DNA of 64,000 nucleotides from Shinella kummerowiae (GTDB lineage: Bacteria; Pseudomonadota; Alphaproteobacteria; Rhizobiales; Rhizobiaceae). The translations under genes were made by a program, and so were the position numbers. Positions 12,065-36,753 of the stretch are shown here, piece after piece (position 1 is the stretch's first letter; every line of letters begins with the position of its first letter). The stretch covers positions 124,001 to 188,000 of the forward strand of contig NZ_WUMK01000003.1 in NCBI RefSeq assembly GCF_009827055.1, written 5' to 3'. The notes below the pieces were generated by a model that saw nothing but the letters and a program-made list of their open reading frames with translations, was not told the origin of the DNA and searched no databases.

Positions 12065-14308
12065 TTAGAACTCTTCCCAGGAATCCTTTTCGATCGCGAC
12101 CGCGGCCGAACCCCTGGCGGTGAAGGCGCTGGCGATGCGGTTGACCATGCTACGGGCGGGAGAGTTCGAAGGGGCAGCATGCCCGGCGGCCGCAGCAGGT
12201 ACGGCCCGGCGTGCAGTGGCCCCCGTGGATGTGCCACTTCCCAGCTGGAACCGCGCGACCACATCGCGCAGCCGCGCAGCCTCGTTCGCCAGGGTCGCGC
12301 CGGCGGCATTGGCTTCTTCCACCATGGCCGCGTTTTGCTGGGTAACCTGGTCCATCTGGTTGACGGCCGTGTTTACCTCCGTCAGCCCGATCGACTGCTC
12401 GCGGGATGAGGTCGTGATCGCGTCCATATGCTGGTTGATGGCGACGATGTAGCTTTCGATCGTCTTGAGAGCCGCGCCCGTCTGGCTGACGAGATGAACG
12501 CCGCTTTCGACCTCGACAGAGGAATTGTTGATCAGGCCCTTGATTTCCTTCGCAGCCATCGCCGAACGCTGCGCAAGTTCGCGGACTTCCTGTGCGACGA
12601 CGGCAAAACCCTTGCCGGCTTCGCCCGCACGCGCCGCTTCCACGCCTGCATTGAGCGCCAGAAGGTTGGTCTGGAAGGCGATATCGTCGATGACGCCGAT
12701 GATGCTGGAGATCTGGTTGGAAGACTGCTCTATCTTGCCCATCGCATCGACGGCTTTCGCAACCACCTCGCCCGACTGGCTGGCACTCTGGTTCGCCTGA
12801 ATGGCGACCGTGCGGGCCTCCTCGACGCGCTTGGAAGAGTTCGCGACATTGGTCGTGATCTGGTCGAGGGCGGCGGCGGTTTCTTCCAGTGATGCGGCCT
12901 GTTGCTCGGTACGCTTGGAAAGGTCGTCGGCGCTCTGGCTGATTTCGCGAGAGCCGCTGTCGATGGACCCCGTTGCGTCCGCGACGGCGGCCATCGTGTC
13001 GCGCAGTTGCTGCACGGCGCGATTGAAGTCGTCGCGCAGGCTTTCGAATTCCTCGGAGAACGGTTGGTTCAATTGAATGGCGAGATTGCCGGACGCGAGT
13101 TGCTGCAGCCCGCCAGCAAGCCCGCTGGTCGCATGCCCCATCGCTTCCGCGCGCACACGCTCCTGTTCGACGGTGATGCGTCGCTGCTGCTCGGACTGAT
13201 CGCGCAGGGCTTCGGCCTGCTGTTCGAGTTCGCGCGCCTTGAGGCCATTGTCCTTGAAAACCTTGACCGCGCGTGCCATCGCGCCGACCTCGTCGGGGCG
13301 CGCATCACCTTCGACGGTTGCCGTGAGGTCTCCCCCGGCCAGCCGCGTCATCGTGCCGGTGAGGCGGGCGAGGGTGCCGGCCAGCGCGCGGGCGAAGAGG
13401 AAGAAGCCGAGCAGGGACAACAGCGAGACCACGACGGTGCCGGCGACCGTCATCCACAGGGCGGTCTTTCCGTCGTTGACGACCGCGCTGACGTCTGACG
13501 CGATCTCCATGATGCCGATCTTGGTACCGGAATAGTTGTTGAACGGCACGGCCTTGACGACGAACGTAGCGTCACCTGCACTTACGCGCCTCTGAATGGT
13601 CTCCCCGGCAAAGGCGGCCGCAAGGTCGTCTTCCGAAAGCAGTGCGGCATCCGTCGTCGAGGCCTGTTTCACCAGCTTGCCGTCGGCAACAATATGGACC
13701 GCGACATCGCCACCGATGCGCGCTGCAAGGGGTTCGAAATAGGCGTTTGTCAAGCTGGTCCCGACGTCAACGACGCCAACCGTCTCACCGCCGCTGACAA
13801 CGGGTGCGGAAGCGAACATGCTGACCGCCGTGCGGCCCGGCTCGATGCCCGCCACGAGCTTTCCGGTCGACAAAGCCTCAACGACGGTCTTGCGGCGGCC
13901 TTTCATATCGTCGCCGAATTTGTCCGGCGTGTGGATGCGGGCGACGGCCTCGCCCTTGGCATTGATGAAGGTGATCAACTGCAGACCGCCGTCGCTGACG
14001 ACAGCCGGCAGGGCAGCAGCGTGTCGGGCAACGATCGCCTCTCGCGCATTGCTGGTGATCAGGCCGGCAACCTCGGGCTCGGCGGCAAGCGTCAGCGCCA
14101 GAGCGGAAGCTGCCTTGCGCTGCGCCGCCATGTCGGTCTCGATCAGCGCAAGATCACTTGCGACCTCGCGCTGCAAGGCGTCGCTGGTCGCAATGGACTG
14201 CCGGTACCAGGCGGTACCGCCGATCGCAATGCTGGAGAACAGGACGGCCGCAAATCCGCAGGCGGTTATCGTTATCCACAAAGGACGCCGAATATCGATT
14301 TCAGACAT
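12065..14308 (-). CDS. Methyl-accepting chemotaxis protein with Cache-type periplasmic sensor
   Basis: A 747-aa transmembrane chemoreceptor. Order: TM helix (about residues 8-30), periplasmic ligand domain of about 250 residues with Cache-type features ([31 protein letters not shown]), second TM ([13 protein letters not shown]), HAMP, and a signalling domain with the methyl-accepting hairpin tip [21 protein letters not shown]. The C-terminus is SWEEF, a CheR/CheB-binding pentapeptide, so it is a high-abundance-type receptor that can assist its own methylation. The start is set at 14308 because AAGGTGATG lies before it; the frame extends upstream without a ribosome site. Its ligand is unknown, but it lies just downstream of the sugar-acid island on the same strand. 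Confidence 0.92.
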
Positions 14309-14318
14309 ATCATCACCT

Positions 14319-14340
14319 TGATGCAACTTGAGTTGCATCA
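14319..14340 (-). promoter_or_regulatory. 10-bp inverted repeat in the chemoreceptor leader
   Basis: TGATGCAACT, a 2-nt centre (TG) and AGTTGCATCA form a near-perfect palindrome 10 bp upstream of the chemoreceptor start codon, just outside the ribosome site. It could be a repressor operator or an mRNA hairpin. An AT-rich promoter-like stretch follows upstream (14342-14370). Confidence 0.45.
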
Positions 14341-14497
14341 GAGATGGTTGATTAAACTCAATTTTACGTAAATCTGCCGCCTCGAAAAATACATCGTCAT
14401 TTCTTGTAGTCACGGTCGCTTCAGGCGGCCGTCCACAATTCACAGAGGCCTGCGCAGTCTCTTCGAAAACTGGCACCCACGGGGTGAAGAACAATCG

Positions 14498-15379
14498 TCA
14501 AAGCAGCCCGTATTGGCGCAGAATATTGGCAATGCGGGCGTCCTGTTCTTCGTTCGGCAGCAAAGCCGGTTGGCGGCTGGCGCCGACGGAGGCGTCCTGC
14601 AGATAGAGCGCGCGCTTGACCATGGCAGGGGCAAAACCGAGCGCGTAGAGATCCGTGCGGAAGGCGGCGAAGATTGCCTGCTGCCTTTCCGCCTCGGCAA
14701 CATCTCCGGCGTTGACGCCCTTGAGGATGCCGGCAAGCACATGCGGCATGGCGTTGCCCAGACCGGAAATGCACCCGGCAGCGCCGTTCTGCAAGGCCCA
14801 GAGCACCAGATGGTCGGGACCGGAATAGACCTCGAAGCCATCGACCTCCTTCGCCACCTGAAGATAGGCCTCCAGTGTCTCCTTCGCGCCTCCCGAATCC
14901 TTGATGCCGGCGATGTTGCCATGGCCGGAAAGTGTGCGCGCGGTTTCCGCTTCGATGTGGTTCTGCGTGCGGGCCGGGATGTCGTAGAGGTAAACCGGCG
15001 TTATCACCGCATCCGCCACGGTCGAGAAATGACGGATGAGGCCATCCTGTGTGCAGGCAATGAAGAAGGGCGTGATGACCGCGATGCCATCGACGCCGAT
15101 GCGATCGAATTCGCGGGCCAGTTTTATCGTTTCGAAGGTCGCCGGCATGCCGGCATTGACGATCACCCTGACGCGGCCGCCGACCTCATCGACCACCTCT
15201 TCCGTCAGGCGCACCTTCTCCTCAAAGGTCAGCGCCGTGAAGTCACCGTTGGTGCCGGCACACATGATGTTGTTGCCGACCTCGACCTGCCGGCGAACCT
15301 GGGCGCGCGTCGCCTCATAGTTGATCGTTTCGTCCTCGTTGAAGCAGGTCACGAGGGCCACGAAGGCTTGTTTGGTCAT
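14498..15379 (-). CDS. DapA/NanA-superfamily aldolase (dihydrodipicolinate synthase family)
   Basis: A 293-aa class I aldolase of the DHDPS/N-acetylneuraminate lyase family, which joins or releases pyruvate. The Schiff-base lysine is present in GIKDSGG, the catalytic tyrosine in YLYDIPARTQ, and the glycine loop is GTNGD instead of GTTGE. It is unlikely to be the housekeeping DapA because it is the last gene of an Opp-type ABC operon and next to acid-sugar catabolic genes; cleavage of a 2-keto-3-deoxy acid to pyruvate plus an aldehyde is the more likely direction. The start is set at 15379 with GGAAG before it, removing an upstream extension that overlaps the ATPase gene in another frame. Confidence 0.88.
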   Translation of the reverse strand: MTKQAFVALVTCFNEDETINYEATRAQVRRQVEVGNNIMCAGTNGDFTALTFEEKVRLTEEVVDEVGGRVRVIVNAGMPATFETIKLAREFDRIGVDGIAVITPFFIACTQDGLIRHFSTVADAVITPVYLYDIPARTQNHIEAETARTLSGHGNIAGIKDSGGAKETLEAYLQVAKEVDGFEVYSGPDHLVLWALQNGAAGCISGLGNAMPHVLAGILKGVNAGDVAEAERQQAIFAAFRTDLYALGFAPAMVKRALYLQDASVGASRQPALLPNEEQDARIANILRQYGLL

Positions 15380-15408
15380 GGGTGTCTTCCTTTTCGTGGG
15401 GCAGCGCC

Positions 15409-17028
15409 TTACGAGGCGCTCTGAAGGCGGGCGGCGCGGTGGGCGGCCTGGATGTCGGGATCGGGGTTGAGCCCCGCGGTGAGAAGGGCACGGGTGTAGT
15501 TTTCCCGCGGTGCGTCGAACACCTCGCGCACCGTGCCGAGTTCGACGATATTGCCCTTCTGCATGACCATGACGTGGTCGGCAAAATCGCGTACGACGGG
15601 CAGGTCGTGGGCAATGAAGATGAAGGCGATGCCCATCTCGCGGCGAAGCTTGTCGAGCAGCGCGATGACCTGCGCCTGCACGGAGACGTCGAGGGCCGAG
15701 ACCGCTTCGTCGCAAATGATGAGTTGCGGTTCAAGCGCGAGCGCCCGGGCAATCGCGATGCGCTGCCGCTGGCCGCCGGAGAACTGGTGCGGATAACGCC
15801 CCATATGCTCCGGTCCGAGGCCGACCTGCACGAGGAGTTCAGCCACGCGTTCGCGCCATTTTGCCCGGGGAAGAATGTCGGGATGGATGACCCAAGCCTC
15901 GGAGATGAGCTGGTAGACGGTCATGCGCGGATTGAGCGACTGGGTCGGGTCCTGAAACACCATCTGCAAGTCACGGCGCAGCTTGTAGAGTTCGGCCGGG
16001 GACATGGTGAAAAGATCGCGGCCCTTCCACAAGGCGCTGCCGGCGTCCGGCTCGTCGAGACGCAGCAAAATGCGGGCAAGAGTCGACTTGCCGGAGCCGC
16101 TCTCCCCGACGACTGCCATCGTCTCGCCTGCCATGAGATCGAAGGACACGCCCTTCAGCGCTTCGAACGAACCGTAACGCTTGCGCACGTCGCGCACTGA
16201 AAGCACTGGCTCGGCGCGGGCGGCGGGGGCGTGCATCTCGCCCTTTCCAGGCGCTGCCGCAATCAGCTTCCTGGTATAGGGATGCTGCGGGTGCCTGTAG
16301 ACCTCGCGCACCGTGCCAGTCTCGACCAGCACGCCCTTCTCCATCACGACGACGCGGTCGGCGATCTCGGCGACGACGCCAAGGTCATGCGTGATGATGA
16401 GCACGGCCATGCCGGTCTCCTGCTGCAATTCCTCCAGCAGGGCGAGCACCTCGGCCTGCACGGTCACGTCGAGCGCCGTCGTCGGTTCATCGGCAATGAG
16501 AAGGTCGGGGCGCAGCGCAAGCGCCATGGCGATCATCACGCGCTGACGCTGGCCACCCGAAAACTCGTGAGGATACTTGTCAAGCGACTGCTCGGGGTTT
16601 GGAATGCCGACGCGCGTCAGGAGGTGCAGCGCCTCGGCCCTCGCCTGCACCGATGCCGTGCCATGCGTCGTCAGTGCCTCGCGGATCTGCCAGCCGACGG
16701 TGTAGACCGGGTTGAGATGGCTCAGCGGATCCTGAAAAATCATGGCGATGCGGCGGCCGTTCACCTCGCGCCGCTGCTGCGCCGGCATTTTCAGGAGGTC
16801 TACGCCGTCGAGCAGGATTTCGCCCGAACTGATGCGGCCCGGAGGCATGTCGATCAGGTTCATGATCGCCGAGGAGGAGACCGACTTGCCCGAACCGCTC
16901 TCGCCGAGGATGGCCAGCGTCTCGCCGCGATCGAGATGGTAGGAGATGTTGCGCACCGCCTTTACCACGCCGACCGCCGTGTGGAACTCGACCGACAGGT
17001 TGCGGACTTCGAGAAGATGCTCAGCCAT
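15409..17028 (-). CDS. Dual ATPase of Opp/Dpp-type ABC transporter
   Basis: A 539-aa protein with two complete ABC domains fused (DppD-DppF or GsiA layout). Walker A GESGSGKS occurs twice (about residues 43 and 312), with signature motifs SGGQRQRV and SGGQRQRI and Walker B segments LLIADEPT and LIICDEAVS. It powers uptake through the two permeases encoded upstream. It overlaps the end of the DppC-like gene by 8 nt and precedes the aldolase by 29 nt, so the aldolase is in the transport operon. Confidence 0.93.
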
Positions 17029-17944
17029 TCGTGCGGCCCTTCATTTCAAGGCGCCAGCGCTGCACGGGGTCGAGCGCGATGCGCAGCCAGTTCGACAGCA
17101 GGTTCAGCGACATGGTGGTGAGGATGATGGCAAGGCCGGGCCAGAAGGATAGCCACCAGGCATTGGTGAGATATTGCCGGCCCTGCGAGATCATCAGGCC
17201 CCAGGTGATTTCCGGCGGCTGGATGCCGATGCCGAGGAAGGAGAGTGCACTTTCGGCCAGCATCACATAGGCGAAGTCGAGTGTCGCAAGCGTCGTCAGC
17301 GTCGGCAGGACAACGGGCAGGATATGGCGAAAGAGAATGCGCTTGCCGGACGCGCCCATGACGCGGGCGGCCTGCACGAACATGCGCTCGCGGATTTCCA
17401 GCACTTCCGCCCGCGTGGTGCGCAGATAGACCGGAATGCGGGTGATCGCCAGCACCAGCATCAGATTGAGGATCGACGACCCGAGAATGTAGAGCACGAT
17501 CACCGCGATCAGCAGCGACGGGAAGGACATGATGACGTCGGCAAGCCGCATGATCACCTGGTTGACACGCGCCGACGAGAAGCCGGCGATGAGCCCGAGA
17601 ACCGTGCCGATGACCGCCGAGAGTGCGACCGCGCCGGCGGCGACCATCAGCGTGTTCTGCGTGGCGACGACGATGCGGGCAAGCAGCGGGCGGCCGAGCG
17701 CATCCGCACCCATCCACCACACCCAGCCGCGCTGCCAGTCGAAGGGTGCTGCATTGCGGCCGCGCAGGTTCTGCTTGGTCGCGAGATCACCCAGCCAGCT
17801 CGGCCCGATAATCGCGAGGATCAGGATGACGATAAGGAAAATCGCCGCGCAGAGCGCGAACTTGTCGGCCAGCAGCATGCGGAACATACGCCGAGCAAAC
17901 GGCAGTTCCTCGGTGATGGTGGTGTCGGTGGTCTGGAGGGTCAT
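17021..17944 (-). CDS. ABC transporter permease, DppC/OppC type
   Basis: A 307-aa inner-membrane permease with about six helices, an N-terminal OppC_N segment (FRMLLADKFALCAAIFLIVI) and the EAA-type coupling loop around VMGASGKRILFRHILP. It pairs with the DppB-like permease. The start at 17944 (MTLQTTDTT) avoids a long upstream extension overlapping the previous gene. Confidence 0.92.
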   Translation of the reverse strand: MTLQTTDTTITEELPFARRMFRMLLADKFALCAAIFLIVILILAIIGPSWLGDLATKQNLRGRNAAPFDWQRGWVWWMGADALGRPLLARIVVATQNTLMVAAGAVALSAVIGTVLGLIAGFSSARVNQVIMRLADVIMSFPSLLIAVIVLYILGSSILNLMLVLAITRIPVYLRTTRAEVLEIRERMFVQAARVMGASGKRILFRHILPVVLPTLTTLATLDFAYVMLAESALSFLGIGIQPPEITWGLMISQGRQYLTNAWWLSFWPGLAIILTTMSLNLLSNWLRIALDPVQRWRLEMKGRTNG

Positions 17945-17955
17945 GGCCCTGCTCC

Positions 17956-18870
17956 TCAGTGGCGGATCCGCGGATCGAGCAATGCATAGGCAAGGTCGAT
18001 CAGCAGGTTCATGAGGAAGATTGCCAGCGCCGTGACGAGGATCGCGGCGAGAACCACGTTGAAGTCGCGCTGCAGGATGGAATCGATCATCAGCTTGCCG
18101 ACACCGGGAAAGCCGAAAATGGTCTCGACGATAACCGCACCGTTGAGCAGACTTGCCGCCTGGTCGCCAATGACGGTGATGACCGGCAGCATGGCGTTGC
18201 GCAGCGCGTGCACAAAGATGATCGGCCCGGATTTGACGCCCTTGGCGCGCGCTGTCTTGACATAGGCGGAGGACAGCGCACCGATCATCGAGCCGCGCAC
18301 CACCTGCACGATGATGCCGAACGGGCGGATGAAGAGTACACAGATCGGCAGGATCCAGTGCAGCAGCGAGCCGGTGCCGGACGTCGGCAGCCAGGCGAGA
18401 TTGACCGAAAAGACGACGATCGCGACGATGGCGATCCAGAAATCGGGCACCGAGGCGCCGACAAGGGAGATGACCGAGGAAAGGCGATCGAAGAATCCGC
18501 CGGCGCGGAAAGCGGCGAGCGAGCCGACGACGATGGCAGCACCGGTGACGAGCGTCATGGTGATGAGTGCAAGCCAGAGGGTCCACACGAAGGCTTCGAG
18601 CACGACATCAAGCGCCGGGCGCGCCTTGCGCAGGGATTCGCCGAAATCACCGGTAATGACATCGCCGACATAACGACCGAACTGCACCAGCAGAGGATCG
18701 TTCAAGCCATGCAGTTCGCGGAACTGCTGCTTCATCTCCGCGGACGCCTCGACCGGCAGGAACAAGGCGGCCGGGTCCCCCGTCAAGCGCGAGAGAAAGA
18801 AGACCATGACGATCAGTCCGACGAGCGAGATCAGACTGGCCACGGCGCGTTTTCGAACGAATTTCAGCAT
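17956..18870 (-). CDS. ABC transporter permease, DppB/OppB type
   Basis: A 304-aa inner-membrane permease with the typical DppB beginning MLKFVRKRAVASLISLVG, a large periplasmic loop after helix 1 and the EAA loop TARAKGVKSGPIIFVHALRN. An in-frame ATG at 18903 also has a purine-rich upstream region, but the 18870 start gives the normal family N-terminus. It is 11 nt ahead of the DppC-like gene. Confidence 0.9.
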   Translation of the reverse strand: MLKFVRKRAVASLISLVGLIVMVFFLSRLTGDPAALFLPVEASAEMKQQFRELHGLNDPLLVQFGRYVGDVITGDFGESLRKARPALDVVLEAFVWTLWLALITMTLVTGAAIVVGSLAAFRAGGFFDRLSSVISLVGASVPDFWIAIVAIVVFSVNLAWLPTSGTGSLLHWILPICVLFIRPFGIIVQVVRGSMIGALSSAYVKTARAKGVKSGPIIFVHALRNAMLPVITVIGDQAASLLNGAVIVETIFGFPGVGKLMIDSILQRDFNVVLAAILVTALAIFLMNLLIDLAYALLDPRIRH

Positions 18871-18957
18871 GGCGCCCTCGGGGGAATCGGGCGGCGGGAT
18901 CATCCCGCCGCCTTGATTGCTGTTGTGACCGGCAAACAGAGCGTTCGCCAGGACAGA

Positions 18958-20457
18958 TTACTTGATCTTGATTTCCGAAAGCTGGAGCGTTCCGTTGGTC
19001 GCCATCGTCGGCTTGAAGTCCAGACGTTCGGAGACGCGCGAGAAGCCGACCATGTGGAACAGCAGCACGTCGGCGACGACCTCGTCATGCACGTAGGCAA
19101 TCACTTCCGACCAGAGCTTGGCGCGTTCCTCACCGACGGCGGCCGAGGCGCGCTTGATCAGGTCGTCGACCTTCGGGTCGGAGAAGCCGGACTGCGTGCC
19201 CTCGGTCGCATATTTGAAGAACATCGAGAACGACGGATCGCCTTTCGAGTTGTCATGCATGGCGGCGACGATCTGCGGACCGCGGCCTTCCTTGAATGGC
19301 TTCGAATAGTACTGTTCGTGCTCGGCGACCTCGACGAACTTCAGCTCGACCGTGAAACCGACCTCCTGGAGCTGTGCCTGGATGGCCTCCATGATCTCGG
19401 TGACGTTCGGGAAGTTTGCCGAGCGCGCAATGATGGTGATCGGCGTGTCGACCTTGACGCCGTCGGCCTTGGCTTCCTCGAGCAGCTTCTTCGCACCGTC
19501 TGGATCATACGGGAAGACCTTTACGTCGGGGTTCCAGCCTAGCGTCGGTGGCGGTACGATGGCGGTTGCGAGCAATGCGCTATCCGGCACGAGTGTACCG
19601 AGGAAGGCCTGGCGGTCGATCGCGATGTTGAGCGCGCGGCGGACGCGCACGTCATTCAGCGGCTCGATATTATGGTCGATGCGCAGATAGACGGTTTCGC
19701 TGTCGAGATAGGAGAAGTCCGTTGCCGGGTTGGTGGCGTCGAGCTGCGAGATCGAGGGCGACAGGTCCGCTTCGCCGGCCTGCACCATGGCGGCACGAAC
19801 CGAAGGATCGGCGCGGAACAGGTAGGTCGCTTCCGTTACTTCTGGCTTGGCACCCCAGTAGTCGTCTCGGCCGGTCAGCACGATCTGCTGGCCCGGTGTC
19901 CAGTTGGTCAGCTTGTAGGGGCCGGTGCCGACGGGTTCGCGCACGAATTCCAGCGGCGTCTCTTCCGGCACGATGGTGACGAGCGACAGCAACAGCGGCA
20001 GGATCGGCTGGACCGGATCGGCCTTAAAGTCGATCGTGTAGTCGTCAACGACGCTCGGCGTCACCGTCATACCGCCGAAGTAACGGCGTGACTCGCAGGC
20101 GTTCTTGTCGCTCATGATGCGCTCGAAGCTGTGTTTGACGTCCTTCGCGTCAAACGCCGTGCCGTCGGAGAATTTCACGCCCTGACGCAGGTGGAACCGC
20201 CAGCTGCCATCGGCATTCTGCTCCCACTTTTCAGCAAGGCGTGGCATCACGCCCTTGTCGCCGCGAACGTCGAGTTCGGTCAGCGTCTCACTGACATTCT
20301 GCAGGATGACGCGGCCGATATTGGAGCGGGTCGCCATGCACGGCTCGAGCAGGTCGGCCTCCTCGGCGAGCACGATCTTGATCGGTCCCGAGCCGGCAAA
20401 GGCAGGGGACAAGGCGGAGCCCAGCATGAGAGCCCCCAGAACAAGCATTTTCTTCAC
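18958..20457 (-). CDS. Family 5 extracellular solute-binding protein (Opp/Dpp type)
   Basis: A 499-aa periplasmic binding protein with a Sec signal peptide (cleavage near SPAFA, residue 21). Family 5 features are visible: LAEKWEQNADGSWRFHLRQGVKFSDG and the EPVGTGPYKL segment. Family members bind peptides, nickel, opines or oligosaccharides; the neighbouring sialidase-like and acid-sugar genes favour a sugar-acid glycoside here, as an inference. It is the first gene of the ABC part of the operon and is preceded by the EamA gene 27 nt upstream. Confidence 0.92.
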   Translation of the reverse strand: MKKMLVLGALMLGSALSPAFAGSGPIKIVLAEEADLLEPCMATRSNIGRVILQNVSETLTELDVRGDKGVMPRLAEKWEQNADGSWRFHLRQGVKFSDGTAFDAKDVKHSFERIMSDKNACESRRYFGGMTVTPSVVDDYTIDFKADPVQPILPLLLSLVTIVPEETPLEFVREPVGTGPYKLTNWTPGQQIVLTGRDDYWGAKPEVTEATYLFRADPSVRAAMVQAGEADLSPSISQLDATNPATDFSYLDSETVYLRIDHNIEPLNDVRVRRALNIAIDRQAFLGTLVPDSALLATAIVPPPTLGWNPDVKVFPYDPDGAKKLLEEAKADGVKVDTPITIIARSANFPNVTEIMEAIQAQLQEVGFTVELKFVEVAEHEQYYSKPFKEGRGPQIVAAMHDNSKGDPSFSMFFKYATEGTQSGFSDPKVDDLIKRASAAVGEERAKLWSEVIAYVHDEVVADVLLFHMVGFSRVSERLDFKPTMATNGTLQLSEIKIK

Positions 20458-20484
20458 GGCGTTTCCTCCCTAGTGAAATCGTGT

Positions 20485-21357
20485 TCAGGCTGATGTTGTT
20501 TTTCCGGATCGCGCGGCGACCAGCGCCGCACAGCAGATGAGCCCGCCACCGAAAAGCGTGGTGAGGGCAATATGTTCGCCAAACAGCGCAAAGCCTCCCA
20601 AGGCCACGAGCGGCAGACGCAGGAAATCGACGGGCGCGACGATGGTGGCGGGCGCCAGCGAAAAGGCATGGGTCATCATGGCCATGCAAGCGGCGCCGAC
20701 CACACCCTGCAACGCAAGCAGTCCCATCTCCCGCGGTCCCGGCGTGGTCCAGAACGGCAGGGCGAAAAGAAACGCAATCGGTACGGTCAGCAGAAGGTTC
20801 CAGACGACAAGTGTCGCTGTCCGGTCCCCCTTCGACATGGATTTCAGGATCAACTGGATGGCTGACTGGAGCACGGCGCCGGTAAGCGCCAGCGCAATGG
20901 CAAGACTGATACCCTTCCCCGACGGACCGATAACCACCAGCGCGCCGACGAAGCCGATCGTGACCGCAGCGATCATCGCCGCCCCCGGCCGCTCACCAAG
21001 CGTCAGCGCGGCGCCAAGCACCAAGAAGATCGGCGATGTGAAGGCGATCGCCGTCACATCGGCGAGCGGCCCCCAGCTGAAGGCAGCGAAGAAGGCGACC
21101 ATGGCCAGCAGCTTGAAACCGGCGCGAACGGCATGCTGGCGGAGCGGATACGTCGAGCGCAGCACGGTCGGACGAACAAGAATGAAGGGCAGGAGAACGG
21201 CAGCGCCGAAAAAAGCACGGAAGAAGCCTATCACGAAGGGATGCACGGCACCCTGCAGGGCGCGCACGATCACGGCGTCGGCTGCCGCGAGCATCGCTGC
21301 ACCGGCTGCAAAGAGCACGGCCACCGTCGCCTTCTGTGAATTGCCGGCTTCCGGCAT
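20485..21357 (-). CDS. EamA/DMT-family transporter
   Basis: A 290-aa ten-helix transporter of the drug/metabolite family with two EamA repeats. The ATG at 21357 is preferred over an upstream one at 21438 because GGAGGAGGATT precedes it. It is the first gene of the minus-strand operon and could import a sugar acid or export an unmetabolised product. The divergent sialidase-like gene begins 233 bp away across a shared AT-rich control region. Confidence 0.88.
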   Translation of the reverse strand: MPEAGNSQKATVAVLFAAGAAMLAAADAVIVRALQGAVHPFVIGFFRAFFGAAVLLPFILVRPTVLRSTYPLRQHAVRAGFKLLAMVAFFAAFSWGPLADVTAIAFTSPIFLVLGAALTLGERPGAAMIAAVTIGFVGALVVIGPSGKGISLAIALALTGAVLQSAIQLILKSMSKGDRTATLVVWNLLLTVPIAFLFALPFWTTPGPREMGLLALQGVVGAACMAMMTHAFSLAPATIVAPVDFLRLPLVALGGFALFGEHIALTTLFGGGLICCAALVAARSGKTTSA

Positions 21358-21419
21358 GAAAATCCTCCTCCCGGCATCCTCTCGCCAGGTTGCCCAGACC
21401 ATCCACTTTTCGCTGAAGT

Positions 21420-21578
21420 TTGTCAAATTATTTTGCAATGTAAATTTATATCGAAGCTCAACTGTAATATTTTCTATTTAAATTCAATTATTTAATTTAG
21501 ATTTATTGCGGCCGTGCCAAATTTGATAACATTCTCAAACTTGACAACTATGTAATTTCGGTGATTTTCAGATCCACA
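21420..21578. promoter_or_regulatory. AT-rich divergent control region of the sugar-acid island
   Basis: This gap is far more AT-rich than its surroundings. A TTGACA-type -35 box is present in each direction: read leftward at 21421-21426 and rightward at 21541-21546. A GATAACA element occurs at 21526-21532 (TTTGATAACATT) and recurs in the kinase upstream region (26660-26675 region, reverse strand), which makes it a candidate site for the island's GntR regulator. Clear -10 boxes are not visible. Confidence 0.4.
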
Positions 21579-21590
21579 CAGGAGGAGCCA

Positions 21591-22787
21591 ATGGACCCCG
21601 CGGAAATCGCCCGCCACATGAATGGCCGACTTCAAGGCACATCGCCCGGACGTGATGAAGCGCTGTTGCCGTCGCCCATGATCCAGAACCATGCCGCGTT
21701 CCTGCATCTGCTTGCCGATGGCGCGCTCGCCTGCGCCTGGTTTGGCGGCACGCTGGAAGGCAAATCAGACATCTCGATCTTCGCCTCCGTGCTGCCGAAG
21801 GGGGCATCAAGCTGGGGGCCGCCGCAGCGCCTGAGCTTCGACCCAGCGCATTCCGAGCAGAATCCGGTATTCTTCACCGCACCTGATGGCAGGCTCTGGC
21901 TGTTCCACACCTCGCAACCCTCCGGCAACCAGGACGAATGCCGCATCCGCATAGCCGAAATCCGGCGCGACGCTTCGGTTCCGCTGGCGCTGACGGCGGA
22001 GGCCGGGCGTTATCTCGACCTGCCTCGCGGCTGTTTCGTCCGCGCACCGCTCACGGTGCGCTCTGATGGCGCGTGGCTGTTGCCGATCTTCCGCTGCATC
22101 CAGCGTCCCGGCCAGAAATGGAATGGCAGTCATGATACCGCCGCCGTTGGCGTCTCGCACGACGGCGGAAAGACCTGGCAACTCAAAGACCTCACCCAGT
22201 CCATCGGCTGCGTGCACATGTCGCCGGCTTCACTGCAAGGCGACCATCTCGCCGCCTTCTTCCGGCGGCGCCAGGCAGACTTCGTCTACAGGACGGAAAG
22301 CCGTGACGGCGGGCACTCCTGGTCCACGCCGCAGGCGACCGACGTGCCGAACAACAATTCCTCCATCGCCGCAATCCGCCTTGACGACGGCCGCGTCGCG
22401 ATGATCTGCAATCCGGTGAACGCAACCCAGTCCACCGACCGCCGCGCTTCGCTCTATGACGAACTCGGCGAAAATGACGACCGCCCCGATGCCGATCCTG
22501 CCGGCGGTTGCTCTCCGGTCTGGGGCGTGCCGCGCGCTCCGGTCGCGCTCTGCCTGTCTGAAGACGGCGGCAACACCTTTCCGGTCCGGCTTCTGATCGA
22601 GGACGGTCCCGGCACCTGCCTTTCCAACGATTCGACCGACGGTCGAAACAAGGAAATGTCCTATCCCTGGCTACTGTCGGAAGCCGACGGCACCCTGCAC
22701 CTCGCCTACACCTATCACCGGCGCGCGATCAAATATGTCCGCCTGGCACCCGGCTGGGAGAGCGCCGATACACGGAGACTTTCATGA
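21591..22787 (+). CDS. Sialidase-like Asp-box (BNR) protein, probable glycoside hydrolase
   Basis: A 398-aa beta-propeller protein with three clear Asp-box repeats ([24 protein letters not shown]), as in sialidases (GH33 and relatives). The region [12 protein letters not shown] with arginines and the final [10 protein letters not shown] are typical of bacterial exo-sialidase-like proteins. There is no signal peptide, so it should act in the cytoplasm on an imported glycoside. Enzymes of this fold remove 2-keto-3-deoxy sugar acids such as sialic acid or KDO, which fits the aldolase in the divergent operon. A GGAGGAG site precedes the ATG. It overlaps pdxA2 by 4 nt (ATGA). Confidence 0.85.
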
Positions 22788-23740
22788 GCAACATCATCGG
22801 CATCACCATGGGCGACCCATGCGGCGTCGGCCCCGAGATTTCGGTGCGGGCGCTGGCCGGCATGACGCCGCAAGAGCGCGCGACGATCCGCATCTACGGC
22901 AATCTCAAGACACTGGAGGCTGCGCGCGAAGCCCTCGACATCACGGTCGACCTGGCGCCGCATGTGGTGGACCTTCCCATCGAGGGCGCACCGCTCGCCT
23001 GGGGGCAGCTCAGTCCGGTCGCCGGCGATGCAGCCTTCCGCTTCATCGAAAAGGCGGTGCGGGATGCAGAGGCCGGAACTATCGGCTGCATCGTCACCGC
23101 GCCGATCAACAAGGAAGCGCTGAACCTCGCCGGCCACCACTATGACGGCCATACCGGCATGCTGCGCAGCCTGACGGGCTCCAAGGCCGCTTACATGTTG
23201 CTCGCCTCCGAGCGCCTGAAGGTCATCCACGTCTCGACCCATGTCTCCCTGCAGGAAGCTATCCGCCGCTCGACGACGGAGCGGGTACTCGCGACCATCC
23301 GCGCCGGCGATGCCCATCTGAAACGCACCGGCTATGCCGCACCGAGGATCGCGGTTGCCGGCATTAACCCCCATTGCGGCGAGAATGGGCTCTTCGGCAC
23401 GGAAGACGACGAGCAGATCGCACCGGCCGTCCAGGCCGCGCGTGCGGAAGGCATCGACGCCTACGGCCCGATCTCCGCCGACACACTGTTCTACCGCGCC
23501 TATGCCGGCGCCTTCGATCTCGTCGTCGCTCAGTATCACGACCAGGGGCACATCCCGGTCAAGCTCGTCGCCTTCGACACCGCCGTGAACGTCTCCGTGG
23601 ACCTGCCGATCGATCGCACCTCGGTCGATCACGGCACGGCCTTCGACATTGCCGGCAAGGGTATCGCCGACCACGGCAACATGAATTCCGCCATTGCCTA
23701 CGCCCGCAAGCTGGTGTCGGGCGCCGCCAAGCGAGGATGA
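22784..23740 (+). CDS. pdxA2: PdxA2-type 4-phospho-acid-sugar dehydrogenase (decarboxylating)
   Basis: A 318-aa PdxA-family enzyme. Family motifs are intact: [13 protein letters not shown], the metal-site histidines in [20 protein letters not shown] and [13 protein letters not shown], and NPHCGENG. True PdxA acts in pyridoxal phosphate synthesis; PdxA2 paralogues oxidise and decarboxylate 4-phospho-D-threonate or 4-phospho-D-erythronate to dihydroxyacetone phosphate. The linkage to a DUF1537 kinase gene in the same island supports the PdxA2 role. Translation is coupled to the sialidase-like gene by a 4-nt overlap and the dehydrogenase follows after 4 nt. Confidence 0.88.
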
Positions 23741-23744
23741 CACC

Positions 23745-24863
23745 ATGAGCATCGCCCCCATCACGCTCCACCAACCCCGCCGGCTCGCCGTCGGCGCCGG
23801 CACGATCGGCGAGGTCGGCGCCTGGGCCTCCGACGCCGGCTCAATACTGGTGATCGCAACGCCGATCACCGCCGGCTTCATCGACCGCCTGAAGCTTGCC
23901 GGCCGTGTCACCGTGTTCGACGCGATCCCGGGCGAGCCGGATATCATGACACTGGATGCGGCCATCGAGGCCGCACGCCGGAGCCGGCCGGATCTCATCG
24001 TCGGCCTCGGCGGCGGCTCGGTTCTCGACGTCGCGAAGCTGGTTGCAGCCCTGTGGGATGGCGAGCAGACGCTCGCCGACGTCGCCGGCCCGAACCGGGT
24101 CAACGCGCGCCGCACGCGCCTCGTCCAGGTCGCTACTACCGCCGGCACTGGCTCCGAGGCCGGCATCCGTTCGCTCATCACCGATCCCGTCAAGGGCAGC
24201 AAGATCGCGGTCGAAAGCCCGCATTTGATCGCCGACTTCGCCGTACTCGATCCGGAACTGACCTATTCCGTGCCATCGGCAGTGACGGCTGCGACCGGCG
24301 TCGACGCCATGGCGCATTGCGTCGAGGCCTTCACCAATCGCCGCGCCCACCCGATGATCGACGGTTTTGCCCGCATGGGCTTCCGTCTCGTCGGCAAATA
24401 CCTTGCCCGCGCGGTGCGCGACGGCACGGACACCGAAGCCCGCGAGGGCTTGATGCTGGCGTCGTACTACGGCGGCATCTGCCTCGGCCCGGTCAACACC
24501 GCCGCCGGCCACGCCATTGCCTATCCGCTCGGCACGCGGCTGCGCCTGCCGCATGGCCTGGCGAACGCCATCATTTTCCCGCACGTCCTGGCCTTCAACC
24601 AGAAGGTCGCAGCAGGAAAGACGTCGGAAGTCGCCGAAGCCCTCGGCCTCGGCGAAAATCTTGCCGCGGAAGATCTGCTCACCGCCGCCCACGGCTTCTG
24701 CCGCGATCTCGGCATAGAAATGTCGCTGTCCGCCCATGGTGCCTCGGCGGACGACCTGCCCCTCTATGCGGGTGAAGCGCACGCCAACCGCCGCCTGATG
24801 GACAACAATCCGATCGACATGAGCGTCGATGACGTGCTCGGCATCTACCGGGCAGCGTTCTAG
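23745..24863 (+). CDS. Iron-type (group III) alcohol dehydrogenase
   Basis: A 372-aa NAD(P)-dependent dehydrogenase of the iron-containing family (maleylacetate reductase/lactaldehyde reductase relatives). The nucleotide motif GLGGGSVLDVAK, the TTAGTGSEAG loop and metal ligands in TGVDAMAHCVEAF, GHAIAYPLG and LPHGLANA are seen. In this island it is a good candidate to interconvert an aldehyde acid and a hydroxy acid, for example a tetruronate to threonate, by inference. The start at 23745 follows GAGGATGACACC. Confidence 0.9.
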   Translation: MSIAPITLHQPRRLAVGAGTIGEVGAWASDAGSILVIATPITAGFIDRLKLAGRVTVFDAIPGEPDIMTLDAAIEAARRSRPDLIVGLGGGSVLDVAKLVAALWDGEQTLADVAGPNRVNARRTRLVQVATTAGTGSEAGIRSLITDPVKGSKIAVESPHLIADFAVLDPELTYSVPSAVTAATGVDAMAHCVEAFTNRRAHPMIDGFARMGFRLVGKYLARAVRDGTDTEAREGLMLASYYGGICLGPVNTAAGHAIAYPLGTRLRLPHGLANAIIFPHVLAFNQKVAAGKTSEVAEALGLGENLAAEDLLTAAHGFCRDLGIEMSLSAHGASADDLPLYAGEAHANRRLMDNNPIDMSVDDVLGIYRAAF

Positions 24864-24882
24864 GAAGCTCAGCTTCCAACAT

Positions 24883-24909
24883 CAAAACCCCCGCTTTGCC
24901 GGGGTTTTG
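24883..24909. terminator. Bidirectional intrinsic terminator
   Basis: A 9-bp stem CAAAACCCC/GGGGTTTTG with a 9-nt loop separates the convergent dehydrogenase and GntR genes. The A-tract and T-tract on the two arms make it work as a terminator in both directions. A short GGAAGCT/AGCTTCC repeat precedes it. Confidence 0.75.
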
Positions 24910-24913
24910 CGCT

Positions 24914-25615
24914 CTACTTGGATGCCTGGAAAAGCCGCTCGCGCGAGCCGGTGAGGTGCTGGTGCATAAGTTCCCGCGCCCGTGCGCCATCACGGGCCGA
25001 AATTGCTTCCGCAATCGCCTCGTGTTCGCCAAAGACCCTGGTGAGGCCAGTGGTCTCTCGCTTTACCGAAGCGCCGTGGAACCGCATCCCGACAGCGATG
25101 TGGTCCTTCAGCGCTTCCATGGCGGTGAAGAAATAGCTGTTCTGCGCGGCGCGGGCGATGGCGAGGTGGAACTGGAAGTCCGCATCCTCCCGGTGGGACT
25201 GCCGGTTGGTAGCATCCCGCATCAATTCCAGGGCCTGGCGGATGGCGGCAAGCGTCGCCGCATCGTGGCGCTCGGCGGCGGCGGCCGCAGCCGCCGGCTC
25301 GACGGTCAGGCGGAACTCGTAGCAATTGAGAAGGTCGGCGACGTTTTCTAGCTGCCCGAAACCCAACGGCTCACGCATGCCGACGGCCCGCACGAAGCTG
25401 CCGGCGCCGCGCCGCGAATAGATGAAGCCCTGCTCGCGCAGCCGCCGCAGCGCCTCCCGGATGATCGGCCGCGAAACCTCGAATTCGATCGCCAGGTCAT
25501 GCTCGGTCGGCAGGCGCTCGTCCGGCTTGTAAGCGCCGGATTTGATGGCGCGATGCATGCGCTCGAAGACGAGATCGCCAAGGCTTCTGCGTGCTGTTCC
25601 GTTCTCCAGTCCCAT
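24914..25615 (-). CDS. GntR-family regulator, FCD (FadR-like) subfamily
   Basis: A 233-aa regulator: winged helix-turn-helix at residues 10-75 (PTEHDLAIEFEVSRPIIREAL), then an all-helical FCD ligand domain with metal-binding positions in DFQFHLAIARAA and HEAIAEAI. FCD regulators commonly respond to sugar acids. It begins 3 nt after the DUF1537 kinase stop, so it is co-transcribed with the kinase and probably controls the whole island as a repressor released by a pathway intermediate. Confidence 0.92.
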   Translation of the reverse strand: MGLENGTARRSLGDLVFERMHRAIKSGAYKPDERLPTEHDLAIEFEVSRPIIREALRRLREQGFIYSRRGAGSFVRAVGMREPLGFGQLENVADLLNCYEFRLTVEPAAAAAAAERHDAATLAAIRQALELMRDATNRQSHREDADFQFHLAIARAAQNSYFFTAMEALKDHIAVGMRFHGASVKRETTGLTRVFGEHEAIAEAISARDGARARELMHQHLTGSRERLFQASK

Positions 25616-25618
25616 CGT

Positions 25619-26647
25619 TCATCCCGTCTTGCGGCACAGCCGGTCCGCGATTTTCCGCAATGTATCCGGCCCGCCAAATCCTCCCGATTTGGCGATAATG
25701 CAATGTCCTCGGGCATGCGCCAAGCCCAACCCGGGCAGACATTCGCCACGCAGCCGGAACCTCCCGATCCCCATTTTCCTGAGCACGGCCTCCGCCGTAG
25801 CGCCGCCGGAAAGCAGCAGCGTCGATGCCCCGCCCACAAGATCGGGGCAGACGCTTTCCGCCAGGGCGTGCGAAACCGCCTCCGAAGCCACGACATCCCC
25901 GCCCGGCACCGCCTGCACAAGCGTCAGAGGGCTGTCATCGGCCCGCGCGCCGTCAAGGCGACCATTCGGTGCCGGCAAGTAGCGCAGTTCACCACGAGCA
26001 AGCAGCGCCTCGATCTGCACAAGTGTAATTGGGTCGCGTGAGCCGATGACGAAAAGGCCAGGGCCCGCTGGTATTTCAGCGGCACGTGCAGGGGCTTGCC
26101 CGCCCATCTTATCGGCAAGCGCTTCCGCAAGGCCACGTGCGCCGACGAGAAGGTCGATGCCCGCCTCGTCCGCCCGTTCCAGCCAAAGGCGCATCTCGTC
26201 TTGGCTGGCAATGTCAGGGATCGTCGCACGGACCGCGTGCGACCCGAGCTTGTCCGCAATGGAAATAGGCGTATCCACCCCGAAACCCATCACGCAACCG
26301 TCCTTGACGATACGACCGAAGGCAGGGATCGCCGGCGCCACCAGCGCCGCGTGGTAGACAATGGCATCGAGTTCGACCGCGACATGCCCCTTGAGACGCG
26401 AATCGACCTTCTTGAAGAGACGCACCTCCGCCGGCAGGGTTGCGAGCGCCCGCTTTGCCTCCTCCCGCGCAGCATCCGCACCGATTTCACGCGACGCGAG
26501 ATTGATCGACAGAACCTGCGGCACCTCTTGCAAGGCCTCCCCGACGGCGCCAGACGAAAGAGCCACTTCGACATGCATATCCCGCGCTGCGAACGGTGCG
26601 GCAGTATCCAGCGCACCCGTTAGATCATCGGCGAGAATGACCAGCAT
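25619..26647 (-). CDS. Four-carbon acid sugar kinase (DUF1537 family)
   Basis: A 342-aa member of the DUF1537 (OtnK/DtnK) kinases, which phosphorylate the 4-hydroxyl of threonate, erythronate or 3-oxo-tetronate. The N-terminal ADDLTGALDTA motif, KKVDSRLKGH substrate motif, LLLSGGATAEAVL and the C-terminal KSGGFGGPDTL nucleotide motif are all present. It is shorter than the roughly 420 aa of many family members, with the core motifs kept. Together with pdxA2 it constitutes the known two-step route from an acid sugar to dihydroxyacetone phosphate. A GAGG site precedes the start, and a TTGACT box lies upstream (26696-26701 on the reverse strand). Confidence 0.88.
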   Translation of the reverse strand: MLVILADDLTGALDTAAPFAARDMHVEVALSSGAVGEALQEVPQVLSINLASREIGADAAREEAKRALATLPAEVRLFKKVDSRLKGHVAVELDAIVYHAALVAPAIPAFGRIVKDGCVMGFGVDTPISIADKLGSHAVRATIPDIASQDEMRLWLERADEAGIDLLVGARGLAEALADKMGGQAPARAAEIPAGPGLFVIGSRDPITLVQIEALLARGELRYLPAPNGRLDGARADDSPLTLVQAVPGGDVVASEAVSHALAESVCPDLVGGASTLLLSGGATAEAVLRKMGIGRFRLRGECLPGLGLAHARGHCIIAKSGGFGGPDTLRKIADRLCRKTG

Positions 26648-35832: not shown

Positions 35833-36753
35833 TCAGCTTGCCTTGGCAAATTGCGCGGCGCTTTCCGGCAGACCGGCAAGCGCACGACGCACGGTCGCAC
35901 TGACGCCGGGCGTGGTCGGCACAAGCGGCAGCCGTACCGTCTCGCACAGGCCGAGCACGGGCGTGAGACCATGTTTGACGGCAGCGGGGTCCGGCGTATC
36001 ACCGAGCGCCATGAAGAGCGGCGCCAGACGATCCTTCAGGTCGAGGGCGAGATCGACATTGCGCGTGCGCAGCGCCTGGTGCATCGCGCTCGTCAGGCGC
36101 GGCGCGAGATTTGCCGCTGCCGAAAACGTTCCGCTTCCGCCCAGCACGTTGAAGGCGAAGGCCGTCGTGTCATGTGCGGAATAGAGTACCAGCCGCTCGC
36201 GTAGCCGGCGGTCGATCACGGCAAGGCGTGCCATGTCACCCGATGCGTCGATGAAGCCATGGATGCCCGGAGCATCGCTGAGCGCCCAGAGGGTTTCGGC
36301 CGTGACATCCGAGCGGGTCGTTGCCGGGTCGACCAGGACGTGGATCGGCAGCGTGGTCGCCTCCGCCACGGCGCGCATATGGGCGATGATGCCCTTCTGC
36401 GTCGGCTTGCTGTAATAGGGCGTCGTGACGACCAGCGCGTCCGCCCCCTCCTCTTCCGCATCGAGAGCAAGCGCGATCGTCGCTTCGGTCGAATAGGTGC
36501 CGACGCAAGCAAGAACCGGCACGGTGAGACGGGCGGCCATAACCACGGTGGCGAGCACGGCACGGCGCTCTTCGCGGCTCAGCGAAGACGCTTCACCAAG
36601 CCTGCCGCAGGCGGCAAGGCCGGACACGCCGCTGGCGGCCTGCCAATTGACGAGGGATGCAAGCCCCTCATGGTCCACCTCATCGCCGCGGAAGGGCGTG
36701 ACGAGGTCTGTGATGAGGCCCTGTACGGGATTACGGCGTCGAAAGTCTGGCAT
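35833..36753 (-). CDS. DapA-fold protein lacking the catalytic lysine and tyrosine
   Basis: A 306-aa member of the dihydrodipicolinate synthase fold by overall pattern (GLITDLVTPF opening, ADALVVTTPYYSKPTQ, HGFIDASGD). The Schiff-base lysine position of GIKxS/E is isoleucine here (GFIDASGD), the catalytic tyrosine segment is VLVDPATTR, and the glycine loop is GRLGEASSLS. It therefore cannot work as a normal class I aldolase. The other DapA-family gene of this window (14498-15379) keeps both residues. It sits in a five-gene operon beside kdp; a regulatory or binding role is possible. Start at 36753 avoids an upstream frame overlap. Confidence 0.85.
   Translation of the reverse strand: MPDFRRRNPVQGLITDLVTPFRGDEVDHEGLASLVNWQAASGVSGLAACGRLGEASSLSREERRAVLATVVMAARLTVPVLACVGTYSTEATIALALDAEEEGADALVVTTPYYSKPTQKGIIAHMRAVAEATTLPIHVLVDPATTRSDVTAETLWALSDAPGIHGFIDASGDMARLAVIDRRLRERLVLYSAHDTTAFAFNVLGGSGTFSAAANLAPRLTSAMHQALRTRNVDLALDLKDRLAPLFMALGDTPDPAAVKHGLTPVLGLCETVRLPLVPTTPGVSATVRRALAGLPESAAQFAKAS

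Follow-up and report, generated by a model that had tools for sequence, protein, structure and literature searches.

Among the closest described counterparts of the genes considered here are those of three systems. D-Threonate is reportedly catabolized by the kinase DtnK together with PdxA2. Sialic acid catabolism is encoded by the nan operon, which comprises the NanA aldolase, NanQ/YhcH, and NanT carriers. The release of 3-deoxy-D-lyxo-heptulosarate (Dha) from pectin rhamnogalacturonan II (RG-II), finally, is explained by GH143 of Bacteroides thetaiotaomicron, a Dha hydrolase with a five-bladed propeller and a Tyr–Glu pair, as set out in passages of PMC6811678. Here, we analyze a gene island that recalls each of these, located at 14498–26647 of a 64,000-nucleotide stretch of the Shinella kummerowiae genome (contig NZ_WUMK01000003.1, positions 124,001–188,000; "the window," to which coordinates refer). 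We suggest, at a probability of about 0.48, that these genes serve the catabolism of a small 3-deoxy-2-ulosaric acid, with Dha, free or minimally substituted, as the likeliest candidate. Its features, taken from the list of open reading frames (ORFs) and a family scan, with the start codons of the aldolase and BNR genes corrected by reading the sequence, are as follows (aa, amino acids).

14498..15379, minus strand: DapA/NanA-fold class I pyruvate aldolase, lineage I (defined below), about 293 aa from an ATG (PF00701, 1.5e-54)
15409..17028, minus strand: Opp/Dpp-type ABC transporter ATPase, 539 aa, two fused ATPase domains (PF00005, ABC_tran, in two stretches)
17021..17944, minus strand: ABC permease of OppC/DppC type (PF00528, BPD_transp_1; PF12911)
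17956..18903, minus strand: ABC permease of OppB/DppB type (an ORF so assigned by position and conservation in relatives only)
18958..20457, minus strand: periplasmic solute-binding protein, family 5, SBP_bac_5 (PF00496, 1.7e-83)
20485..21438, minus strand: EamA/DMT permease, an optional member (PF00892)
21540..21548, no strand assigned: the element CTTGACAAC 5' of the BNR gene, by its position a candidate -35 box and/or operator
21591..22787, plus strand: BNR sialidase-fold protein (BNR_2, 8.5e-62) with an altered active site
22784..23740, plus strand: PdxA2-like 4-phospho-acid-sugar dehydrogenase/decarboxylase (PdxA family, 1.6e-98; TIGR00557, 346 bits against a cut-off of 290.35)
23745..24863, plus strand: iron-type alcohol dehydrogenase (Fe-ADH), the proposed tetruronate reductase (PF25137, PF00465)
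24883..24909, no strand assigned: inverted repeat between the convergent Fe-ADH and GntR genes (sequence and palindrome scan), probably their shared terminator
24914..25615, minus strand: FCD-type GntR regulator (PF07729, PF00392)
25619..26647, minus strand: short DUF1537 four-carbon acid sugar kinase, 342 aa (SBD_N and NBD_C)

All six genes of the first minus-strand group are intact ORFs. Genes named in an earlier sequence-only reading of this DNA were recovered as intact ORFs of the families proposed there; the DMT permease was missing from its list. The base composition of the island is ordinary relative to the window.

Relative to the DtnK–PdxA2 route, the island adds an aldolase, an Fe-ADH, a BNR protein, and a carrier, and its kinase is shortened and scores below the DtnK cut-off. 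It resembles sialic acid catabolism in its DapA/NanA-fold aldolase, its sialidase-fold protein, the GntR-type control seen in the window, and the YhcH homolog of the E. coli and Pantoea versions; it differs in that the window aldolase falls below the NanA cut-offs, its partners are D-threonate-type enzymes, and no ManNAc (N-acetylmannosamine) kinase or epimerase occurs among the island genes. The BNR protein shares with GH143 the form of a sialidase-like propeller, which in GH143 acts on Dha, but has His in place of the Glu, and so lacks the combination of five blades with a Tyr–Glu pair by which passages of PMC6811678 define GH143.

The case for a single pathway begins with the joint conservation of five families: aldolase, BNR, PdxA, Fe-ADH, and DUF1537 kinase. 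A BNR-family scan of named genomes gave 572 loci, the best 80 of which (the nearest relatives only) were considered; 67 of these, with full 10-kb flanks, were used, and 13 with cut flanks were left out. The 67 loci are all alphaproteobacterial by title and are not independent of one another. Profile searches found all five families in 64 of them and the aldolase in every one (67/67); the exceptions lack the kinase (L129), PdxA (L156), or both (L159). The window's own genome has seven DHDPS-family genes in 6.34 Mb, at which density a 21-kb stretch taken at random would hold one in about 2% of cases; the linkage of the aldolase is therefore more than accident. Gene order is likewise stable: everything except the DMT permease is found in the same order in 10 of 11 window-like loci (L026–L036), while in L035 the contig end falls inside the ATPase gene; the DMT permease itself occurs in four (L026, L029, L031, and L032). 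The gene set is also present in A. fabrum C58. With the kinase as anchor and the window's own genome set aside, all five families were present in 11 of the 13 strongest relatives; of the other two, G023 is truncated at the end of its contig and G147 has no Fe-ADH. Of eight weaker kinase relatives, seven were examined: one has all five families, and in six PdxA accompanies the kinase without aldolase, BNR, or Fe-ADH. These counts indicate that the short kinase travels with this island, and that other DUF1537–PdxA pairs exist without it.

The aldolase provides our best argument. In alignment, the window enzyme keeps the Schiff-base Lys and the Tyr, as the sequence-only reading had held, together with a YDIPART motif, and both residues are present in all 14 island aldolases aligned, from both of the lineages described here. 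It is a class I pyruvate aldolase by the criteria of the superfamily (PF00701), not of the NanA and DapA equivalogs, scoring 115.5 against a cut-off of 281 (NF003164), 93.3 against 382 (TIGR00683), and 191.3 against 206.15 (TIGR00674). Among the 67 loci, with lineage set by profile score rather than by a tree and with low-scoring extra DHDPS matches (86–93 bits; L094, L095, L109, and L144) left out, a high-scoring lineage I aldolase stands alone in 47, mostly at the end of the ABC operon; a low-scoring lineage II aldolase stands alone in 20, in each case between PdxA and Fe-ADH. No locus (0/67) holds both, and the two lineages are 21–26% identical where aligned. The aldolase role has thus been refilled from another branch of the family, which argues that the pathway needs that reaction. 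In DHDPS, the Arg following the YxIP[AS] motif binds the carboxylate of aspartate semialdehyde; it is present in eight of the nine lineage I aldolases aligned.

Among 5426 complete E. coli genomes, 1043 hold a related island by blastn, over at least 80% of its 9-kb length. In E. coli TUM14771 (L203:7582–16561), it lies between glnS and nagE, in the order DeoR, D-threonate 4-phosphate dehydrogenase, dtnK, Fe-ADH, DHDPS family, TerC, sialidase family, YhcH, and SLC13 permease. Against the curated D-threonate models, its kinase (532.5, cut-off 450) and PdxA (681.2, cut-off 583) both score above threshold, as do those of L182 (613.5 and 681.4), and its BNR protein keeps 13 of 13 checked residues of the window BNR. 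Together with the co-conservation of the five families, the company that these D-threonate enzymes keep in the two loci, next to genes for Fe-ADH, aldolase, and BNR, supports the proposal that the genes form one pathway ending in the DUF1537–PdxA2 route. The YhcH gene adjoins BNR, its product scoring 91.5 bits against the sialic acid anomerase model (below the cut-off of 160); the permease scores 56.7 bits against DASS (below 198.6) and 87 against Pfam CitMHS (above 31.9).

This E. coli island has been seen before. Region GR6 of E. coli BEN2908 (nagE..glnS), which PMC12928451 compares with a cluster of S. meliloti 1021, has the same gene families and the same chromosomal place as the TUM14771 island; in passages of that paper, it is read as sugar/B6 metabolism, with neither a substrate nor an aldolase-to-D-threonate route given there. 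It is possible, following the interpretation of the E. coli pair in those passages, which cite Thiaville 2016, that the kinase and PdxA salvage 4-hydroxy-L-threonine into vitamin B6 and that their neighbors are unrelated. The window PdxA does pass the general PdxA cut-off (TIGR00557), and PdxA2 is able to do the PdxA reaction according to passages of PMC9997740. However, the same passages also give PdxA2 a role in organic acid catabolism, and B6 salvage would account neither for the close association of the pair with aldolase, Fe-ADH, BNR, and carriers nor for the D-threonate-specific equivalogs of the E. coli island; we regard it as improbable.

For a catabolic pathway, we infer every substrate and step, working backward. 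Should D-threonate be what the kinase receives, its precursor would be a four-carbon uronic semialdehyde reduced by Fe-ADH; that semialdehyde, along with pyruvate, would come from aldolase cleavage of a C7 3-deoxy-2-ulosarate. Read forward, an acid would be taken up by the Opp-type ABC system (or by SLC13, SSS, or TTT carriers in relatives), and the cytoplasmic BNR protein would turn what is imported into the free, open-chain acid, whether by hydrolysis, lactone opening, or a change of anomer or isomer. The DapA-fold aldolase would then cleave this acid to pyruvate and D-threuronate, the dihydroxy analog of succinic semialdehyde; Fe-ADH would reduce D-threuronate to D-threonate; the DUF1537 kinase would form D-threonate 4-phosphate; and PdxA2 would oxidize and decarboxylate the latter to dihydroxyacetone phosphate. 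GntR would control the island genes. Redrawing the Fischer projections, we find C4 and C5 of 3-deoxy-D-lyxo-heptulosarate on the left and C6 on the right; once the acid is cleaved and the product turned, C2 lies left and C3 right, the configuration of D-threonate. This fit, to one of four stereoisomers, is a mild coincidence in favor of Dha rather than proof. Dha as a candidate substrate is consistent with what was observed, as is the stereochemistry suggested in the sequence-only reading. The dicarboxylate nature of Dha agrees with an SLC13-type carrier, and a cyclic 2-ulosonic acid would suit the position of YhcH beside BNR in E. coli and Pantoea.

The BNR protein is the most unusual component. 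Its gene starts at ATG 21591 behind a good ribosome site; an alternative 408-aa ORF, by which residues are numbered here, begins at GTG 21561. No signal-like stretch is evident by eye at the N-terminus, in keeping with the earlier description of the protein as signal-less, and by appearance it would be cytoplasmic. It is a sialidase propeller with Asp boxes, as in GH33, and its model aligns end to end with sialidases. Automatic alignment of the family to one sialidase (MAFFT add, hhalign) was discarded as out of blade register over most of the protein, MAFFT matching only Arg3 and the Tyr and placing other catalytic positions elsewhere; HMMER alignments to NanC and NanB, with residue spacing, were therefore used instead. 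The key residues are E66 and a set invariant in 24 BNR sequences: H44, H219, R235, R325, and Y368. Y368 aligns with Y370 of the M. viridifaciens sialidase, the nucleophile there, and is Tyr in 24/24. The Glu that would assist it in GH33 appears to be absent: H219, again His in 24/24, falls on what is presumably the catalytic Tyr-assisting Glu of NanC, 16 residues before the Arg matching R235, a spacing equal to that of E260–R276 in the M. viridifaciens sequence. R235 and R325 fit the sialidase Arg2 and Arg3. The place of Arg1 (the FRIP Arg) is apparently taken by H44, as read by eye from spacing and motif, automatic alignments having put this region elsewhere, and E66, a candidate for the acid/base position, falls on an Asp of NanB in a weak HMMER alignment of 2.3 bits with which MAFFT disagreed. 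As aligned, the active site appears to be without the Tyr-assisting Glu and the acid/base Asp of sialidases, and probably without Arg1.

Such a site could do other chemistry. The invariant H44, H219, Y368, R235, and R325 form a set that we take to resemble that of uronate lyases, and BNR could be a lyase or dehydratase acting on another uronate or aldarate to give the 2-keto-3-deoxy acid, the pathway logic being otherwise the same. DapA-type aldolases often act after a dehydratase, and no dehydratase gene was seen among the island genes scanned. We know of no natural C7 precursor for such a step, however, and the E. coli YhcH gene fits a ready-made ulosonic acid; this variant seems quite unlikely to us.

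A special kinship of BNR with GH143 was considered and dropped, its profile scoring about 16 bits for two presumed GH143 proteins against 18 for an ordinary sialidase. A 41-residue BNR stretch, chosen after the fact, resembles PDB 5mqr (E 0.0047), presumably a GH142/GH143 protein, and 5mqr is not among the 50 matches listed for the BNR protein. The 27 records behind the idea comprise two from Bacteroidota and 25 from Agrobacterium, Rhizobium, Paracoccus, and Pleomorphomonas; among the 20 matches listed of those 27, 16 of 18 outside Bacteroidota are labeled exo-alpha-sialidase.

Beyond the close relatives, all five families occur in nine of eleven named loci chosen for variety (L026–L028, L080–L087), as well as in L203, L206, and L207. 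A wider sample of 20 loci, from order and phylum samples, covered 20 of the 30 hit genomes other than the window's own (three more are in the kinase-anchored set, seven were left out); a Klebsiella plasmid record (L204) was left out as having almost no gene table. Ten of the 20 wider loci have all five families, and 17 have the aldolase. A more distant BNR group (L194–L198, about 36–38% identical) combines BNR with a full-length DUF1537 kinase in five of five loci and with the aldolase in four, at the edge in L195 and L197. In this group, L195 and L198 were scanned for further families, and both hold a family-5 binding protein and a PrpR-like sigma-54 activator, with an FCD GntR in L195. The carriers are diverse: peptide-type ABC systems in the islands of Rhizobium N1314 and R. 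leguminosarum CB782; another ABC system in Azospirillum; SSS carriers in Caballeronia (with a kinase–PdxA fusion), in Pantoea (with a YhcH gene adjoining BNR), and in Methylobacterium nodulans; and a TTT binding protein in Comamonadaceae. Carriers in relatives also include SLC13 (with weak DASS and CitMHS matches), SSF, and TTT binding proteins. Overall, hosts of the conserved set are bacteria of soil and plants, and some of the gut.

Several observations weigh against the Dha pathway as proposed. The window kinase has the DUF1537 fold and the superfamily motifs DDLTGA, KKxDSxLxG, GG, and KxGxFG; it matches SBD_N only at model positions 1–126 of 230, however, and scores 99 bits against the DtnK cut-off of 450 (NF047819). 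The window PdxA scores 305 bits against 583 for the D-threonate 4-phosphate dehydrogenase (NF002891). The kinases of L083, L082, L054, L050, L190, and L195 also fall below the DtnK cut-off, and the PdxA proteins of L083 (292 bits) and L082 (336.3 bits) below that of NF002891; the D-threonate assignment is therefore transferred to the window by gene context. The five lineage II aldolases aligned lack the carboxylate-binding Arg, the Caballeronia one having Lys. Some genes are split over two frames (the kinase in L027, the aldolase in L028, PdxA in L086, PdxA and kinase in L137, Fe-ADH in L142), which reflects either record error or decay; those of L137 and L142 were counted as present, which is not the same as intact. 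Among the named loci, L085 (Roseomonas) lacks PdxA and kinase and L084 (Pantoea) the kinase, and in Pantoea piersonii (L205) BNR stands without any of its four partners. Regular loss of the aldolase or BNR gene, which the sequence-only reading had named as evidence against itself, is not seen in the close islands; it does appear in part further out, where three of the 20 wider loci have no aldolase nearby, L192 among them, and L185 has BNR alone. PdxA is absent within about 10 kb in all of L194–L198 (0/5), and Fe-ADH stands only at the edge of one. Because of the content of these loci, the core may be BNR, kinase, and aldolase, with PdxA and Fe-ADH replaceable.

Two further difficulties concern the form of the substrate: an Opp-type importer would equally suit an oligosaccharide or a peptide, and the BNR step would be needless for free open-chain Dha. 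It is conceivable that a di- or oligosaccharide containing Dha or Kdo (3-deoxy-D-manno-octulosonic acid) is imported and that BNR is a cytoplasmic glycosidase freeing the ulosonic acid for the same aldolase and D-threonate route. The places of the sialidase Glu and Asp, however, appear to hold H219 and E66, and that of Arg1 probably H44, while Bacteroidota relatives have Gln rather than His at 219. The carriers of the E. coli, Pantoea, Comamonadaceae, and Methylobacterium islands are typical of small acids or solutes, and GH143, the known Dha hydrolase, retains its Tyr–Glu pair (passages of PMC6811678). We consider such a glycosidase rather unlikely. The altered active site, and the use of SLC13, SSS, or TTT carriers by relatives, likewise weaken the earlier proposal of glycoside import followed by sialidase-type hydrolysis, and the sequence-only interpretation is, overall, partly supported.

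Some observations on the surroundings are recorded here. Upstream of BNR, footprinting finds CTTGACAA on either strand in all 47 lineage I islands; TTGACAA in this region is not claimed as an operator, the footprint overlapping a -35-like box. A short SDR oxidoreductase of about 226–244 aa is encoded near BNR in the non-rhizobial islands L082, L083, L084, L085, L206, and L207, often directly or nearly behind it. In Bacteroides finegoldii (L209:29391–33257), a 1288-aa protein with a GH78 domain (by label) and a C-terminal BNR domain of related pattern adjoins GH140 and, by analogy with the GH142–GH143 protein, could be a Kdo-side-chain enzyme. In Croceibacterium (L199:5866–12780), the neighbors of a BNR protein whose N-terminus looks signal-like by eye include a DUF1537 kinase, a RuBisCO-like protein, and a protein with a beta-L-arabinofuranosidase domain, surroundings that recall isoapionate-type pathways. 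Within the window, a methyl-accepting chemotaxis protein-like gene (by eye; 12065–14494, minus strand) lies directly beyond the aldolase, and a second DHDPS-family gene (35881–36723, minus strand) lies outside the island.

No Dha breakdown route was found in the open-licence literature searched, a scope outside which most subscription papers fall. The earlier statement that no pathway with this enzyme set had been described stands in that literature as regards function; the gene set itself is already in print, in passages of PMC12928451. New, as proposed, would be the assembly of familiar enzyme families into a pathway not yet described there, one of them with an unusual active site.

Rather doubtfully, we would extend these findings to a widespread, undescribed degradation pathway for Dha or a close 3-deoxy-ulosarate, in which a sialidase fold altered to His/His/Glu does a new step on a ulosonic acid, and which about one fifth of complete E. 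coli genomes would carry and could use to feed on Dha freed from plant RG-II by gut Bacteroides. If true, this would supply the missing breakdown route for Dha, a constituent of plant cell walls, and would explain the presence of the island in so many E. coli genomes and in many rhizobia. It would also correct the labels "exo-alpha-sialidase," "dapA," and "pdxA" on these genes, and would add an enzyme of sialidase fold whose active site is unusual.

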